Positions 36,834 through 42,049 of a stretch of 53,110 bases of DNA are shown here, one piece after another. Made by a program: the position numbers and the translations under genes. The DNA comes from Anaerolineae bacterium (GTDB taxonomy: Bacteria > Chloroflexota > Anaerolineae > B4-G1 > SLSP01), in assembly GCA_025454475.1 (NCBI GenBank), contig JALOOJ010000011.1, forward strand, positions 1-53,110. Direction: 5' to 3'. The number at the start of each line of letters is the position of its first letter. The first letter of the stretch is position 1. The notes below the pieces were generated by a model. That model was not told the DNA's origin. It saw only the letters and a list, made by a program, of their open reading frames with translations, and did no database searches.

Positions 36834-36916
36834 CCGACGTGCTCGTGTCTGGATGCTGCGCCAGCTGTGCCGTTGAGCGCAGTTAGCCGGTGTGTGCTAT
36901 CAATAGGAGTCCTAGC

Positions 36917-37927
36917 ATGCCTGCTATTCTCGAAGTCGACAACCTCGTCAAGAAGTTCGGTGAGTTTGAGGCCGTCAAGGGCGTCAGCTTCCAGGTGGAG
37001 GAAGGCGAGGTCTTCGGCCTTCTGGGCCCCAATGGCGCGGGGAAAACCACTACGATCTCCATGCTCACCGGCATCCTCGCGCCCACAGCCGGGACAGCCC
37101 GGATCGGTGGCTACGACGTACGCACCCAGATGGCGCAGGCCAAGACGCTGAATGGCCTTGTGCCGCAGGACCTGGCACTATACCCTACTCTGAGCGCCCG
37201 CGCTAACCTGGAGTTCTTTGGGCGGGTCTACGGGCTGAAGGGGCGCGACCTCAAGGAACGTGTGGCAGATGTGCTGCGCGTCGTCTCTTTGACCGAACGT
37301 GCCGATCAGGCTATCGAGACCTTCTCCGGAGGTATGAAGCGGCGGGTTAACATTGCTGCCGGGCTTGTCCACCAGCCCCGCCTTCTGTTCCTCGATGAGC
37401 CCACCGTCGGCGTCGATCCCCAGAGCCGTAACCACATCTTCGAGAGCGTTCTGCGGCTCAATCGCGAGCGGGGGATGAGCATCATCTACACTAGCCACTA
37501 CATGGAGGAGGTAGAGCTGCTGTGTAGCCGCGCCGCGATCATCGATGAAGGGCGCATCATCGCACTGGACACGATCAAGAACCTCATCGCGATGCTTGGC
37601 GGTGGTGTGATCCATGTTGGCGTCGAGCGGGCCGATCCAACCACGCGGGACGCCATCGCTGCGTTACCGATGGTCAAAGAGGCGGTTCTGTTGGCCCCGT
37701 CGGTTGCTGCACCTCCGGCGCCCGGTGCCGAGGCGGACCTGCACGAACGCGCTCCTCTTGCCACGGGCAGCGTGATCAAAATCGTCACTGAGCACAGCCA
37801 ACAGGCCGTGGTCAGCGTGATTGGTTACCTAAACACCCACGACATCATGCTGACCTCGTTGGAGATCCTGGAACCCAACCTGGAGAGCGTTTTCCTTCAC
37901 CTGACCGGCAAGAAACTGCGGGACTAG
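36917..37927 (+). CDS. ABC-2 type transporter ATP-binding protein
   Basis: About 336 residues. Motifs: GPNGAGKTT (Walker A), VPQDLALYP (Q-loop), FSGGMKRR (signature), LLFLDEPTVGVD (Walker B) and YTSHYMEE (switch His). A C-terminal accessory domain of about 100 residues follows, with a Pro/Ala-rich loop. It drives the exporter formed by the two following permeases; relatives export drugs, lipids, or polysaccharides. AGGAG is eight bases before ATG 36917; the frame opens earlier at 36890. Confidence 0.93.
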   Translation: MPAILEVDNLVKKFGEFEAVKGVSFQVEEGEVFGLLGPNGAGKTTTISMLTGILAPTAGTARIGGYDVRTQMAQAKTLNGLVPQDLALYPTLSARANLEFFGRVYGLKGRDLKERVADVLRVVSLTERADQAIETFSGGMKRRVNIAAGLVHQPRLLFLDEPTVGVDPQSRNHIFESVLRLNRERGMSIIYTSHYMEEVELLCSRAAIIDEGRIIALDTIKNLIAMLGGGVIHVGVERADPTTRDAIAALPMVKEAVLLAPSVAAPPAPGAEADLHERAPLATGSVIKIVTEHSQQAVVSVIGYLNTHDIMLTSLEILEPNLESVFLHLTGKKLRD

Positions 37928-37940
37928 TCTGGAGCCCACG

Positions 37941-37954
37941 CGGGTCGGAACCCG
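37941..37954 (+). repeat. Single CGGA mini-hairpin between ABC-2 genes
   Basis: CGGG-T-CGGA-A-CCCG fits the consensus unit exactly, with its own stem. It lies 14 bases after the ATPase stop and 15 before the permease start. Confidence 0.65.
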
Positions 37955-37969
37955 TTGAGAGGTGCTGAG

Positions 37970-39211
37970 ATGAACGTGCTGCACATCGCTGTGAAGGACT
38001 TGGGCATTCTCTTTCGGGATCGGGGTGTCTTCATCCAGCTCCTGGGTTTGCCGCTGATTTTCATCCTGGTGTTCAGCGGGGCGATGCAGGCAGCGGTGGG
38101 GGGACAGCAGGATACCCGGATGCCATTGCCGGTGGTCGATCAGGACCGCGGCCCTGGTGCCCGGGCGTTGCGCGAAGGCATCGAGTCCGCTGGTGGCGTT
38201 CGTATTGATCTCATCGACCAAGCCGTGGCCGACGAAGCGCTCGACAAGGGGACAATGGCGCGGGCGCTGTATATACCGGCCAACTTCAGTGATGACGTTG
38301 CGGCCGGACGTCAGGCAACGCTGCATCTGGTGAGTCGGCCTGACGCAGACATCCCGCGAACTGAAGCGTTGCGGCTCGTGATTGAAGGGGTCGCACGTGA
38401 CATGGCCCTGGAAGGCCAGATTGTCACCAGCCTGCGCCAGATGGGCGAGATGATGGCCAACGTGCCCGATGCCTTTGCGGCGTTGGCGGTCGAGCAAGGA
38501 CCCGCGCAGGCCCGGGAGCAGTTTGAGCTCTCGCGAAATCGACCCCTCGTATCTCTCGTCACACGCGTTCCTCAGCGCGCTGTGACTGTTGAAGAGGAGG
38601 CCACCGCGGCGCAGTTAGCCGTGCCGGGTTTCACCGTGCTTTTTGTCTTCCTCACGTCGCAAGCCACAGCCCGTTCGATCTACGACGAGAAGAAAGTGGG
38701 GTCCTTTCGTAGGCTGCTGGCTTCGCCTATCTCCAAGGTCGAGCTGCTGGTGGGCAAGATGTTGCCCAATGTGGTCGCGTCCCTCATCCAGGTAGTGGTC
38801 ATCTTCGGTTTCGGCGTGCTGGTTCTGCCTCTCTTGGGTCAGGCGCCCCTGAGTCTCGGGAATGCGCCGCTCGCCGTGGTGCTGGTCGCCGTGCTGATGG
38901 CATTGTGCTCCTCCGGTCTGGGTATGCTGATCGCCGCTCTGGCGCGCACCGAGAACCAGATCGGTGGGCTCAGCGGCGTAATTCTCTGGGCGATGGGTAT
39001 CCTTGGTGGTAGCTTCATCCCCGTATTCTTCCTGGAACGGTTCCTTGGTCCGGTCATGCGCCTTGTGCCTCACTACTGGGCCAACAGTGCGTTCACTGAT
39101 CTGCTTGTGCGCGGTGCCAGCCTGGCCGATGTCGTACCGCAGATGGTCGCACTGCTGGTCTTCACCGCGGCCTTTTTCACTGTGGGTCTCTGGCGCTTTG
39201 ACTTCGACTAG
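37970..39211 (+). CDS. ABC-2 type transporter permease
   Basis: About 413 residues with the layout of the ABC2_membrane_3 family: one membrane helix near the N-terminus (about 20-45), a large extracytoplasmic domain (about 45-210) and five or six helices to the C-terminus, including SQATARSIYDEKKVGSFRRLLASPISKVELLVGK, the coupling region. It pairs with the next gene. The likely start is ATG 37970 after GAGAGGTG, with a mini-hairpin upstream. Confidence 0.92.
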   Translation: MNVLHIAVKDLGILFRDRGVFIQLLGLPLIFILVFSGAMQAAVGGQQDTRMPLPVVDQDRGPGARALREGIESAGGVRIDLIDQAVADEALDKGTMARALYIPANFSDDVAAGRQATLHLVSRPDADIPRTEALRLVIEGVARDMALEGQIVTSLRQMGEMMANVPDAFAALAVEQGPAQAREQFELSRNRPLVSLVTRVPQRAVTVEEEATAAQLAVPGFTVLFVFLTSQATARSIYDEKKVGSFRRLLASPISKVELLVGKMLPNVVASLIQVVVIFGFGVLVLPLLGQAPLSLGNAPLAVVLVAVLMALCSSGLGMLIAALARTENQIGGLSGVILWAMGILGGSFIPVFFLERFLGPVMRLVPHYWANSAFTDLLVRGASLADVVPQMVALLVFTAAFFTVGLWRFDFD

Positions 39212-39255
39212 GCTCTCATGAGCTCAACCTGAATCAGAGAATGGAGAATGAGAGA

Positions 39256-40524
39256 ATGCGGAACGCGGGAGTTCGCCAAATGCTGATCGTGACCGGCAAG
39301 GAGATTCAGGTGCTGGTCCGCGAGCGAGGCGCCCTGGCAGTGCTCTTTCTACTGCCGCTGCTGGTCGGTTCGCTCTATGGCACGATGCAGACACAGATGG
39401 CCCGCGACAGTGAGGCCAACCCCATCTTTCTGACCGTTGCGCTGGCGAATCTGGATGCCGGCACCTTCGGTGTGGAGCTCAGTAAGGCGCTCCACGGCAT
39501 CTCTATCCTTGAGGTCGTCGAGCCTGAGACGCCGGAAGAGGCTGAAGCGATAGTTGCAGAGGGGCGGGCGACTGCCGCCATCGTGATCCCTGCCGATTTC
39601 ACGGCACAGGTCGATGCTTACGAGCCCACGCAGATCACCGTGATCCTCGACCCTGCGGACCCGCAGCGCGCGGAGATCGTGAACGGCATCATGAAGGCGG
39701 CGGTCTCGGAGGTCACGATCTGGGGCGAGGTGCAGTACGGCGTGCGCACGGTGTTGCGCGACTCCGGCCTGCTCGACGACGCTGACCCTGAGGCCCAGCG
39801 TGCGGCTGCTGCACAGAGCTTGGGTGTCATCATGACGCGCATCAACGAGCTGCGCAGTGACCCACCCATCCGCGTATCCAGTGAAGACCTCCAGGGAGCT
39901 ACCGTAGAAGGGGGCATCACTGTGTTCCTGGCGCATATGTTCCCGGGCATCACAGTCATGTTCGTCTTCTTTGTGGTGGGCGTGGCGGGCGAATCGCTGT
40001 TGCACGAGCGCGAGGTGGGTACGCTGCGCCGCCTCCTAGCCTCGCCGATCCCCAAGGCCGCAGTGATAGCCGGTAAGGTGCTTGCCTTCACCCTTCTCGT
40101 CTGTCTGCAGGTCGTTGTGCTCTTCGGCACCGCCAATATTGCCTTTAGGATGCCGCTGGGCCGGGCGCCGTTGGCGCTGATCCTATTGACGGTCATCCTG
40201 GGTTTGGTCGCCAGTGCTTTGGGTATGCTGGTTGCCAGCTTCTCGAAAAGCGCCAAGCAGGCCGATAGCGCGGGCATGATTCTCAGCTTTGTGCTCGCAG
40301 GCCTGGGCGGCGCGATTGCCATCAGCCAGTTCCCGCTAGCCCGGTCCGGCGGCCCGATGGCTACCGTCGCTCAGCTCACACCCCACGCCCACGCGATCGA
40401 AGCCTACTACCGCCTGATGGCTGAGAAAGGGACCCTTGTTGACATCCTGCCACAGCTCGCCGTCCTGCTGGGTATGGCGCTTCTCTTTGGCGCCATCGCG
40501 GCCCGGCGCTTCCGCTTCGAATGA
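39256..40524 (+). CDS. ABC-2 type transporter permease (paralog)
   Basis: About 422 residues, homologous in topology to the previous permease, with the parallel coupling motif ESLLHEREVGTLRRLLASPIPKAAVIAGK and a large external domain. The two presumably form a heterodimer. GGAG lies nine bases before ATG 39256; an in-frame ATG at 39241 has no clear ribosome site. It is the last gene of the exporter operon, followed by a terminator-type hairpin at 40537-40576. Confidence 0.92.
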   Translation: MRNAGVRQMLIVTGKEIQVLVRERGALAVLFLLPLLVGSLYGTMQTQMARDSEANPIFLTVALANLDAGTFGVELSKALHGISILEVVEPETPEEAEAIVAEGRATAAIVIPADFTAQVDAYEPTQITVILDPADPQRAEIVNGIMKAAVSEVTIWGEVQYGVRTVLRDSGLLDDADPEAQRAAAAQSLGVIMTRINELRSDPPIRVSSEDLQGATVEGGITVFLAHMFPGITVMFVFFVVGVAGESLLHEREVGTLRRLLASPIPKAAVIAGKVLAFTLLVCLQVVVLFGTANIAFRMPLGRAPLALILLTVILGLVASALGMLVASFSKSAKQADSAGMILSFVLAGLGGAIAISQFPLARSGGPMATVAQLTPHAHAIEAYYRLMAEKGTLVDILPQLAVLLGMALLFGAIAARRFRFE

Positions 40525-40586: not shown

Positions 40587-40614
40587 TTGACAGCTGCGGC
40601 GTCGGGTCTACAAT
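40587..40614 (+). promoter_or_regulatory. Strong sigma70 promoter for the rsgA leader
   Basis: TTGACA (40587-40592, perfect) and TACAAT (40609-40614) with a 16-base spacer: the best -35 in the window. Predicted transcription start is near 40621, giving a leader of about 375 bases before rsgA. Confidence 0.7.
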
Positions 40615-40642
40615 GGCTGCATATCTTACAGGGAGGCGCACT

Positions 40643-40711
40643 ATGTCGATGAGCATAATACACGCTGTTGTCGTCAATGACCACCAAGTGCGCCTGTACC
40701 CCGTAGACTAG
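40643..40711 (+). CDS. 22-residue leader peptide upstream of rsgA
   Basis: GGGAGG (40631-40636) precedes ATG 40643 by six bases and opens MSMSIIHAVV, then VNDHQVRLYPVD, ending at TAG 40711. It is the first ORF after the strong promoter and ends 25 bases before arm 1 of the alternative RNA structure. The peptide has no residue run that would mark a classical amino-acid attenuator. Its translation, or its stalled ribosome, could set which structure forms. It resembles no family I know. Confidence 0.55.
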   Translation: MSMSIIHAVVVNDHQVRLYPVD

Positions 40712-40736: not shown

Positions 40737-40772
40737 ACAAAGCCACGGGCTCACTTGGGTCCGTGGCTTTGT
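40737..40772 (+). other. rsgA leader arms 1 and 2 (anti-antiterminator hairpin)
   Basis: ACAAAGCCACGG (40737-40748, arm 1) and CCGTGGCTTTGT (40761-40772, arm 2) form a perfect 12-bp stem with a 12-base loop. Arm 2 can instead pair with arm 3 (40808-40819) over 11 of 12 positions, two of them wobbles. A third hairpin, TCCTGAT-5-ATCAGGA (40777-40795), lies between arms 2 and 3. Confidence 0.65.
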
Positions 40773-40810
40773 CACGTCCTGATTCTGCATCAGGATGAAT
40801 GCGTTGTGCG

Positions 40811-40866
40811 AAACCACGGACCATCAGGGGTGCATCTCACCCGGGGTCGCGTGGTTTTTCTTTTTC
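40811..40866 (+). terminator. Intrinsic terminator of the rsgA leader (arms 3 and 4)
   Basis: AAACCACG-GACC (40811-40822) pairs with GGTC-(G)-CGTGGTTT (40845-40857), with an inner GGGTG-5-CACCC hairpin, followed by a true T-run (TTTTTCTTTTTC). This is a full intrinsic terminator about 130 bases upstream of rsgA. Its arm 3 overlaps the sequence that arm 2 can capture, so termination and antitermination exclude each other. Confidence 0.75.
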
Positions 40867-40883: not shown

Positions 40884-41012
40884 ATGCTCGAACAGGTGAC
40901 TCGTCCGCTGAGGTGCGCGATGGTCCACGAAGCTGACCGGTACTCCGCTCGGGAGTCCGGCTATTTGAAGAGAAGGGCTACGCAAGGAGAGCGCAAATGT
41001 CTGCTGTTGTAG
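40884..41012 (+). CDS. Small ORF (42 codons) overlapping the rsgA start
   Basis: AGAGGAGGTG precedes ATG 40884 at good distance. The frame encodes MLEQVTRPLRCAMVHEADR to GERKCLLL and its TAG lies 16 bases inside rsgA, a sign of translational coupling. Within it, CCGG-ACTCC and GGAGT-CCGG (40937-40960) form a 9-bp stem with one bulged base, so the stretch could be RNA structure as much as protein. The peptide is basic with no recognised domain. Confidence 0.4.
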   Translation: MLEQVTRPLRCAMVHEADRYSARESGYLKRRATQGERKCLLL

Positions 41013-42049
41013 AAGACACGCTACAGGTTGGTCTCGACGGTGGCCTGATCGCTGAGGGCGATCAGGCTTCCGCAGTGATGCTGAGTCAGGGTCTTGTCAC
41101 TCGTAAGGACCGCGGTCGGTATATGGTCCGGACTGGCGAGAAAGCTGTGCCCTGCACGATCTCGGCTATGCTCAGGAAACGTCTGCTGTACCCGTTGCGT
41201 GACCCTGCGTCGCTCGGTCACTACGAAGTGCAGCGGGTAGAGGATATCGAGGTAGTCGACCCAGTTGCCATCGGTGATCAGGTCGCATTCGTGGCAGCCG
41301 GCGATGGTACTGGCATGATCAAGGAGGTCCTTCCCCGGAAAAGCCAGTTGTCAAGGCGCGATCCTGGGCCGATCCCACTGGAGCAGGTGCTGGTGGCCAA
41401 CGTTGATCAGATGGTGGCGGTGTTCGCTGCGGCACGCCCTCAGCCAAAGTGGCACCTCCTGGACCGGTACCTGGTCATAGCTGAGGCCGCAGGGATCCCT
41501 GCGCGGATCTGTATCACCAAGATGGATCTTGTCGACGCCGGTGCTGTGGATGATATGCTCGGGTTGTACCAGGATCTGGGCTACCCTGTGACATTGACCA
41601 GCACTGTAGGCGGCCAGGGGCTCACGGCGTTCCGCGATGATCTTCGCGGCCGTATCTCGGTGCTCCTTGGCAAGTCCGGTGTAGGCAAGACAAGCCTGCT
41701 TAACGCGATCGAACCGGGCCTGGGGCTGAAGGTGAACGCGGTGAGCACAGGGAAGATCGGGAAAGGGCGTCACACAACAACGCACTTGGAGTTGGTCCCG
41801 CTGTCTGTAGGAGGCGGAGTGGTCGATACACCTGGAATGCGTGAGCTGGCGCTGTGGCACACAGATCGTCAGGAGCTTGGTGCATGCTTTCCGGAGCTCA
41901 GGCCATACCTGGGCGCGTGCAAGTTCGGACTCAGCTGCCACCACGACGGTGAGCCCGGTTGCGTCGTCCGCGAGGCTGTCGATAATGGTGACATCTCAAG
42001 GGCCCGTTACGAAAGCTATCTGCGAATCGCTCAGGACGCCGACGCGTAA
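40997..42049 (+). CDS. rsgA: Ribosome small-subunit-dependent GTPase RsgA
   Basis: A 350-residue late 30S-assembly GTPase. After an N-terminal OB-fold (to about 115) comes the circularly permuted G domain with G4 first (TKMD, 174-177), then G1 GKSGVGKT (225-232) and G3 DTPG (277-280). A zinc site follows: Cys 308, Cys 314, His 316, Cys 322. GTP hydrolysis triggered by the 30S subunit checks subunit maturity. ATG 40997 follows AAGGAGAG. It is monocistronic, bounded by an attenuator-like leader upstream and a hairpin downstream. Confidence 0.95.
   Translation: MSAVVEDTLQVGLDGGLIAEGDQASAVMLSQGLVTRKDRGRYMVRTGEKAVPCTISAMLRKRLLYPLRDPASLGHYEVQRVEDIEVVDPVAIGDQVAFVAAGDGTGMIKEVLPRKSQLSRRDPGPIPLEQVLVANVDQMVAVFAAARPQPKWHLLDRYLVIAEAAGIPARICITKMDLVDAGAVDDMLGLYQDLGYPVTLTSTVGGQGLTAFRDDLRGRISVLLGKSGVGKTSLLNAIEPGLGLKVNAVSTGKIGKGRHTTTHLELVPLSVGGGVVDTPGMRELALWHTDRQELGACFPELRPYLGACKFGLSCHHDGEPGCVVREAVDNGDISRARYESYLRIAQDADA

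Follow-up and report, generated by a model that had tools for sequence, protein, structure and literature searches.

The window analysed here is a stretch of 53,110 nucleotides from an Anaerolineae bacterium (assembly of 4.8 Mb in 369 contigs), and it carries on its forward strand a gene for an RsgA-family GTPase (40997–42049, 350 aa). The encoded protein contains GKSGVGKT, DTPG and Cys/His motifs; its G motifs and Cys/His motif were aligned to 6h4d and 1t9h, and domain searches returned PF03193 (E = 2.9e-52) as well as TIGR00157 above its cut-off. An ABC exporter gene set, consisting of an ATPase and two ABC-2-like permeases (36890–40524), lies on the same strand directly upstream of the leader described below. 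A second rsgA copy is found elsewhere in the same genome (contig C12, L002) and has no such leader. A tree built from 73 RsgA proteins placed the window gene in a clade of 27 rows with a support of 100/100, while the C12 copy grouped with the leaderless RsgA of other class members. On this phylogeny, the window gene is predicted to be a paralog and not the housekeeping RsgA ortholog, and we refer to its clade as RsgA2.

Nine of the 27 RsgA2 rows were marked leaderless. Two of these nine (L009 and L061, identical in the tree) have incomplete upstream sequence, and the leader of that genome is provided by L100, whose gene is an rsgA2 N-terminus. Through the identity of L009 and L061, a genome of the window's genus (G670) shares its rsgA2 sequence with a public Thermoflexales MAG, which places the window in class Anaerolineae, Chloroflexota. 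The leaderless copies L035, L042, L045 and L067 are located, by eye, directly 3′ of exporter-type genes. Counting of PF03193 copies in 17 leader-bearing rsgA genomes revealed at least two copies in 10 of them. We also observed by eye that RsgA2 proteins have an insertion (LLYPLRDPASLGHYEVQRVEDIE-like) relative to housekeeping RsgA, at residues ~60–86 of P0001, before the conserved OB-fold/GTPase part. Between the leader and the GTPase gene lies a second small open reading frame of 42 codons (40884–41012, forward strand; SD GAGGAGG), the last 16 nt of which are shared with the start of rsgA2. Its SD–ATG context (GAGGAGGTGTGYGATG) is also present in the sister leader L100 and its peptide is not conserved; translational coupling to rsgA2 may be an added role of this reading frame.

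A first-pass annotation had described a four-arm attenuator at 40737–40866 on the forward strand, and we investigated the folding of this segment. Its folding energy was −66.8 kcal/mol, compared with an average of −40.0 for shuffled sequences (z = −7.5; 0/200 shuffles as good), and its longest perfect stem, 16 bp, was reached by none of 300 dinucleotide shuffles (maximum 14). This stem forms the first hairpin, T1 (40737–40772), where 40737–40752 and 40757–40772 make 16 continuous standard pairs, the outer part of which is the perfect 12-bp pairing of arms 1 and 2 given earlier; we designate its arms c (40745–40758, arm plus loop) and d (40757–40772). A spacer hairpin of 9 bp (40775–40797) separates T1 from the second hairpin, T2 (40810–40866 with its T-run), formed by arms e and f, the former arms 3 and 4. 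The T2 hairpin covers 40810–40858 and is followed by TTTTTCTTTTTC at 40855–40866, in agreement with the terminator proposed before, and T2 is thus the predicted intrinsic terminator of the window copy. Arm e (40811–40822) can instead pair with d: in the register 40758–40769/40811–40822, the 11 of 12 paired positions reported for arms 2 and 3 were recovered with one C–A mismatch, and the two wobbles within the last five pairs of the originally given register can be read from the sequence. The T-run of T1 is degraded in the window (CTTTGTCACG) and the stem is lengthened to 16 bp, whereas T1 of relatives is a terminator with a T-run; arms 1 and 2, taken as a protector hairpin in the four-arm model, are located where relatives have their primary terminator. 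In the sister leader L100, the T-run of T1 is kept (GGCTTTTTGTTG) and only a decayed T2 can be seen by eye.

The sequence upstream of these hairpins contains a sigma-70-like promoter, TTGACA-16-TACAAT (40587–40614, forward strand), matching 11 of 12 consensus positions; two promoter-like sites were found in a 551-base stretch, compared with a shuffle mean of 0.2. The promoter is followed on the same strand by a uORF of 22 codons (40643–40711), which has an SD (GGGAGG) and an ATG and encodes MSMSIIHAVVVNDHQVRLYPVD before its stop codon. The 3′ part of the uORF Shine–Dalgarno region, AGGCGCACT (arm a, 40634–40642, forward strand), is the complement of 40687–40695, within arm b at the 3′ end of the uORF (40684–40697, forward strand). 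Arm b has two possible partners: with a, it forms an anti-antiterminator of 9/9 pairs (40634–40642 with 40687–40695), equalled by 4 of 1000 shuffles; with c, it forms a first antiterminator (40684–40697 with 40745–40758), identified by repeat search as 14 nt at 86%. The promoter, the complementarity of SD and uORF end, the b:c pairing and the second rsgA were absent from the first-pass annotation. Judged from these pairings, the attenuator would begin ~100 nt upstream of the start assigned to it and comprise six arms, a–f. The attenuator logic proposed at the outset is borne out, but the four arms make up only the 3′ half of the whole chain. As had been stated, 25 nt separate the uORF stop codon from arm 1, and this distance had been regarded as a little far for a link to the ribosome; the distance holds, and the link would be provided by arm a, at the SD, and arm b, at the uORF 3′ end.

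We then examined whether these pairings recur, by searching RsgA2 homologs in 400 genomes of the phylum and 396 genomes of the class. Many RsgA2 upstream regions contain a strong SD (AAGGAGGCGC), a uORF of 20–27 codons and, at the uORF end, a sequence complementary to the SD. They are followed by T1, a hairpin with the stem CCACGGG...CCCGTGGC and a T-run, 19–30 nt 3′ of the uORF stop (107 nt in the outlier L034). A second hairpin T2 of similar stem, with a T-run, is often present, and an automatic scan placed a second terminator at most 350 nt from T1 in 54/73 leaders, some of these within coding sequence. In a sequence-only alignment of 13 of 20 leaders (A1; L032–L034 and L063–L066 omitted), the b:c helix comprised 14 pairs with 90.7% of cells paired; 9/14 pairs were doubly changed, the covariation was 0.377 (0/500 shuffles), and the signal was lost on sliding by 1–3 columns. 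For a:b plus c:d in the same 13 leaders, 95% of cells were paired, with 18 double-change cells (0/500 shuffles). A further pairing test covered 16 of the 20 leaders (L032, L033, L064 and L066 omitted) and likewise indicated that a:b is maintained through compensatory changes.

Comparison of each leader's own arms with arms swapped between leaders, in 72 of 73 rows (L062, with too short a loop, was dropped), gave −18.5 against −16.4 kcal/mol for a:b (z = −7.7) and −22.05 against −18.56 kcal/mol for b:c (z = −11.2; best of 5000 permutations, −19.7), whereas for the control a:c own arms were no better than swapped ones in these 72 leaders (z = −0.3); the permutation ignores relatedness, and the z-values serve as guides. 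Since the helices a:b and b:c share arm b and both are maintained, they carry the signature of a switch. One group (f127; L063–L066) has a weak b:c (−16.0 and −13.2 in the two tested) and a different terminator stem; arm a, the SD complement, is altered in L065 and L066.

These data bear on two simpler readings of the locus. If only c, d, e and f mattered and some trigger melted the 1:2 hairpin, as in the four-arm model, the c:d, e:f and d:e pairings of the window and the conservation of d:e would be accommodated, and the lost T-run of the window T1 would fit a protector hairpin here; but a and b covary mutually and with c across the 72 leaders, T1 is a T-run terminator in most relatives, and the uORF is left unconnected, making this model improbable. 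The hairpins might also do no more than terminate, in tandem, the ABC exporter operon that ends upstream at 40524 on the same strand, with the GTPase gene unregulated. We give this hardly any credence: a near-consensus promoter and the uORF intervene, the sister leader L100 precedes the same GTPase gene, and the arms covary.

The downstream pairing, d:e, was evaluated in 42 leaders with T2, listed by hand from the terminator scan plus L038: own arms gave −20.7 kcal/mol and swapped arms −16.9 (z = −8.3; 0/5000 permutations as good). Relatives in which both hairpins exist thus keep the pairing of arms 2 and 3 along with the terminator. Pairs of d:e using bases that are unpaired within T2 showed no enrichment in 40 of the 42 leaders (2.0 versus 2.41; L138 and L144 omitted), so the conservation of d:e may come in part from stem sequence common to T1 and T2, and with this extension test negative we do not claim independent selection of d:e.

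The distribution of the leader was investigated with a covariance model built on the 13 leaders (R1), which at a threshold of E 0.01 had matches in 108/396 genomes of the class. Applied to the phylum sample with a threshold of E 1e-4, R1 matched 28/400 genomes, all of them class members; with Infernal's stricter filters, no match was obtained in the 345 genomes of other classes in this sample (55/400 are class members), and the leader of L034 was visible by eye in another class. A second model (R2) matched in 19/24 genomes of the window's family. Genes downstream were surveyed for 59 hits outside the rsgA2 set, namely the better-scoring R1 places plus L109 of the window's own genome; 58 had an open reading frame and 57 were Pfam-scanned (L100, with its rsgA2 N-terminus, omitted). 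These 57 proteins comprised ABC_tran 21 (ABC_membrane 18), RIO1 15, GNAT Acetyltransf_1 9, RsgA 4 and MFS 2, together with one each of AspRS, RtcB, methyltransferase and ABC-2 permease. ABC-F genes follow leader L107 and, in the window's family, L177, L178 and L183; the L178 protein scored above the curated NF000355 cut-off, and those of L177 and L183 scored below it. The downstream proteins of L182 and L185 are ABC-F-like, by similarity to the eye. By domain content, the genes behind the leader are predicted to be of a translation-stress or resistance type, and the attenuator is not special to rsgA.

Several members of the family deserve separate mention. RIO1-domain kinases were seen behind leaders L088, L097, L099, L101, L102, L126, L131, L132 and L138, and further ones behind L143, L144, L146, L171 and others. 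The same leader precedes a second RsgA lineage outside RsgA2 with a long basic N-terminal extension (L092, L098, L105 and L142); PF03193 is single-copy in three genomes of this lineage (G641, G664 and G734) and present in two copies in G679. At L140, a leader with both T1 and T2 precedes an RtcB RNA ligase gene.

Alternative leader hairpins such as these are also typical of ligand-binding riboswitches and of autoregulation, here by RsgA or a ribosomal protein. We regard this explanation as very improbable: Rfam gave no match at gathering score in the window or in 20 leader loci, the A1 alignment revealed no conserved domain beyond the arms, and because genes unrelated to rsgA are preceded by the identical architecture, its general role cannot be autoregulation by RsgA.

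We next considered the uORF across the family. An SD and a uORF, predicted to be translated, were found by automatic parse in 67/72 leaders. Five entries require a remark on the parsing: L078 was left unparsed though a uORF is seen by eye, and in L134, L141, L146 and L147 the parse took a wrong frame or one that stops early. The 67 passes include a second match in L098 (5 codons) that is spurious and was excluded only from the Asn count below. The uORF stop is located a median of 15 nt 3′ of b and a median of 23 nt 5′ of T1 (10–90%: 20–31). The uORF peptide is not conserved, and all three reading frames occur across arm b (43, 18 and 6 of 67), which indicates that the RNA is kept and not the peptide; a conserved arrest peptide was rejected on this ground. 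Where arm b lies in frame 0, 'SAPV'-like uORF ends are common.

The window uORF contains no amino-acid codon run, and the only repeated feature of the rsgA2 uORFs of five close relatives is a Val-rich patch (AVVV / VVVI / AVFV / AVVC). An amino-acid-specific attenuation of the RsgA paralog, trp/his-like, is what the AspRS members of the leader family resemble; for rsgA itself we consider its prospects slim, given the window uORF without a codon run and the differing uORF peptides among relatives, and a trigger of this kind was dropped for the rsgA leader.

The AspRS members include the second leader of the window's own genome, L109 (C331:11312-11475), located 5′ of the gene for an AspRS paralog of ~463 aa; contig C324 of this genome encodes a longer AspRS. 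L109 scored E 0.015 with R1 and 2.6e-6 with R2, the training set of which includes L109. The leader and the AspRS paralog also occur together in five relatives (L174, L175, L176, L180 and L187). All six AspRS uORFs have Asn at codon 9 plus 3–4 more Asn codons, all but one of them at codons 10–16, 5′ of b (codon 15–19). Asn accounts for 26/147 residues of the AspRS uORFs, compared with 64/1594 of the other uORFs (Fisher p = 4e-9, a value inflated by relatedness). The Asn run is positioned where a stall would leave b free, as a ribosome sensor predicts. We looked for a missing AsnRS, and found asnS above the cut-off in 10/10 genomes, so the Asn link is not explained by lack of AsnRS, and the idea of the AspRS paralog compensating for its absence was rejected. 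The AspRS paralog behind the leader may be an enzyme of tRNA-dependent Asn synthesis, in parallel with AspRS2 of Deinococcus; its control by Asn-specific attenuation is possible.

We then computed partition functions with and without a ribosome. For naked RNA, c:d was favoured in 66/67 leaders and b:c was above c:d in 1/67; with a ribosome at the uORF stop, c:d was favoured in 67/67. With an early stall, the ribosome at codon 3, b:c won at equilibrium in 22/67 leaders and not in 45/67. In the full-length window leader at equilibrium, b:c and d:e were never favoured with the various ribosome footprints applied, even with arm a masked, and this result by itself spoke against the switch. Stepwise transcript ends in the window with an early-stalled ribosome gave a different sequence of states: b:c was the minimum-energy state up to 40766, c:d was better by 4.1 kcal/mol at 40772, b:c + d:e was the minimum at 40822 (−63.0 versus −62.1), and at 40857, with T2 complete, the terminated state was better by 10.4 kcal/mol. 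In the window, c:d + e:f win at equilibrium, and the antiterminated state is favoured only transiently. Being worse at equilibrium, the antiterminated state of the window would have to act kinetically; in these calculations, a domino during transcription is only kinetically plausible.

Taken together, our results suggest that the leader is a ribosome-mediated transcription attenuator, with a:b as anti-antiterminator, b:c as antiterminator, and tandem terminators T1 and T2 linked by the antiterminator d:e; we assign this reading a probability of about 0.78. Against it stand the equilibrium preference of the window leader for c:d and e:f, the 45/67 leaders in which an early stall did not let b:c win, the negative extension test for d:e, the weak b:c of the f127 group and the leaderless RsgA2 rows. 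Comparison across leaders establishes, at the level of sequence, the arms and their exclusive pairings, their covariation, the placement of the uORF, the family and the gene set. Without a ribosome on the uORF, a:b would pair, T1 and T2 would form, and transcription would stop. A ribosome translating through would cover b while c and d emerge, likewise leading to termination. Only a ribosome arrested at the uORF start or its first codons would mask a and leave b free; b would then pair with c, blocking T1 and releasing d to pair with e, which would block T2 and let RNA polymerase read into the gene for the RsgA paralog. We infer with good confidence that the ribosome is the sensor.

With moderate confidence, early arrest would be the trigger, and the rsgA uORFs, having no codon run, make general arrest the likelier one. 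The likeliest cause would be an antibiotic that acts on the ribosome and halts it during initiation or early elongation, in a tetracycline- or pleuromutilin-like manner, or else general translation stress; our confidence in antibiotics as the inducers is likewise moderate. In that case the RsgA paralog might be produced for ribosome rescue, protection or assembly, a function we propose only tentatively.

The same switch could instead be set by occupancy of the SD by initiating ribosomes, acting as a monitor of ribosome availability or initiation rate, with the RsgA paralog tracking 30S supply, in a way comparable to the uORF of the Sinorhizobium DUF1127 gene (PMC12218461). HflX acts on 50S/70S and RsgA on 30S subunits; a monitor of this kind would fit both this activity of RsgA and the identity of arm a with the SD itself, and slow elongation in general could give the same early occupancy as a drug. 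The leader, however, also precedes exporters, GNATs and ABC-F genes, which fit drugs better than 30S supply, and the AspRS version with its Asn run indicates that codon-specific stalling works on this chassis. We therefore consider an availability monitor unlikely, and favour arrest of the ribosome early in the uORF.

Extending the attenuator reading to the whole family, Anaerolineae may have a translation-stress regulon without a master regulator, in which one cis RNA chassis, a uORF with two antiterminators working as a domino on tandem terminators, is copied before many genes and its uORF is adapted to the signal: non-specific before RsgA, RIO-kinase, ABC-F, exporter and acetyltransferase genes, and Asn-specific before the AspRS paralog. 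We hold the chances of this extension to be about even. If it is true, RsgA2 and the RIO kinases would belong to the ribosome factors of an antibiotic response, a role in which they have gone unrecognised, in parallel with HflXr; a mostly uncultured class would have a WhiB7-like response built on a repeated RNA device and not on a transcription factor; and the leader would mark unknown ribosome-protection genes, any gene behind it being a candidate. Because Asn codons occupy a common site in the AspRS versions, stall sensing could be tested directly on these.

Attenuators of the trp/his type follow a four-arm logic, in which 1:2 and 3:4 alternate with 2:3. The AspRS members share with them a codon run (Asn); the rsgA leaders differ in having no run, and in that arm 1 is the uORF's own SD.

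Bacillus subtilis vmlR, an ABC-F gene, is controlled by a uORF and a chain of anti-antiterminator, antiterminator and intrinsic terminator, and the switch is set when a drug stalls the ribosome right at the beginning of the uORF (PMC9226507). The vmlR uORF has 3 codons and lies inside the first stem, whereas the uORFs here have 14–35 codons, arm a is the uORF's SD and arm b its 3′ end; moreover, there are often two serial terminators here, and one leader is reused before many gene types (PMC9226507). The Listeria gene hflXr (leader rli80) encodes a resistance paralog of a GTPase that associates with the ribosome, and its transcription is similarly attenuated through a uORF; HflXr offers a precedent for such control of a GTPase paralog. 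The hflXr uORF, of 14 codons, contains an RLR stall motif, and no such motif is general here (PMC6310831).

In Escherichia coli, tetracycline and retapamulin arrest ribosomes at start codons of the toiL uORF (PMC12121999). This multi-drug uORF of topAI resembles, in its start-codon arrest, the mechanism proposed for our leader, but it acts through SD access and Rho-dependent termination instead of intrinsic terminators, at a single locus (PMC12121999). The Sinorhizobium DUF1127 attenuator, in which the uORF RBS pairs with part of the uORF and tetracycline is an inducer, differs in that its accessible element is located among early codons rich in C, and its abstract describes no b:c/d:e chain (PMC12218461). 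The gene set recalls the Streptomyces WblC/WhiB7 regulon, which comprises an RsgA paralog, aminoacyl-tRNA synthetase paralogs, ABC and MFS proteins, GNATs and an rRNA methyltransferase, and is induced by translation drugs through one trans-acting transcription factor, in contrast to the repeated cis-acting leader here (PMC7157823). SCO6149/SCO5211, an RsgA paralog pair, are listed there with synthetase paralogs among the paralogs that differ in WblC-dependent tetracycline response (PMC7157823).

The first-pass annotation knew of no attenuator reported for rsgA, and in open-access full text we likewise found neither an rsgA attenuator nor this leader reported. Ribosome-mediated attenuation is already known; a chain that uses the SD as arm a, has serial antiterminators and is reused before many genes is, to our knowledge, new.
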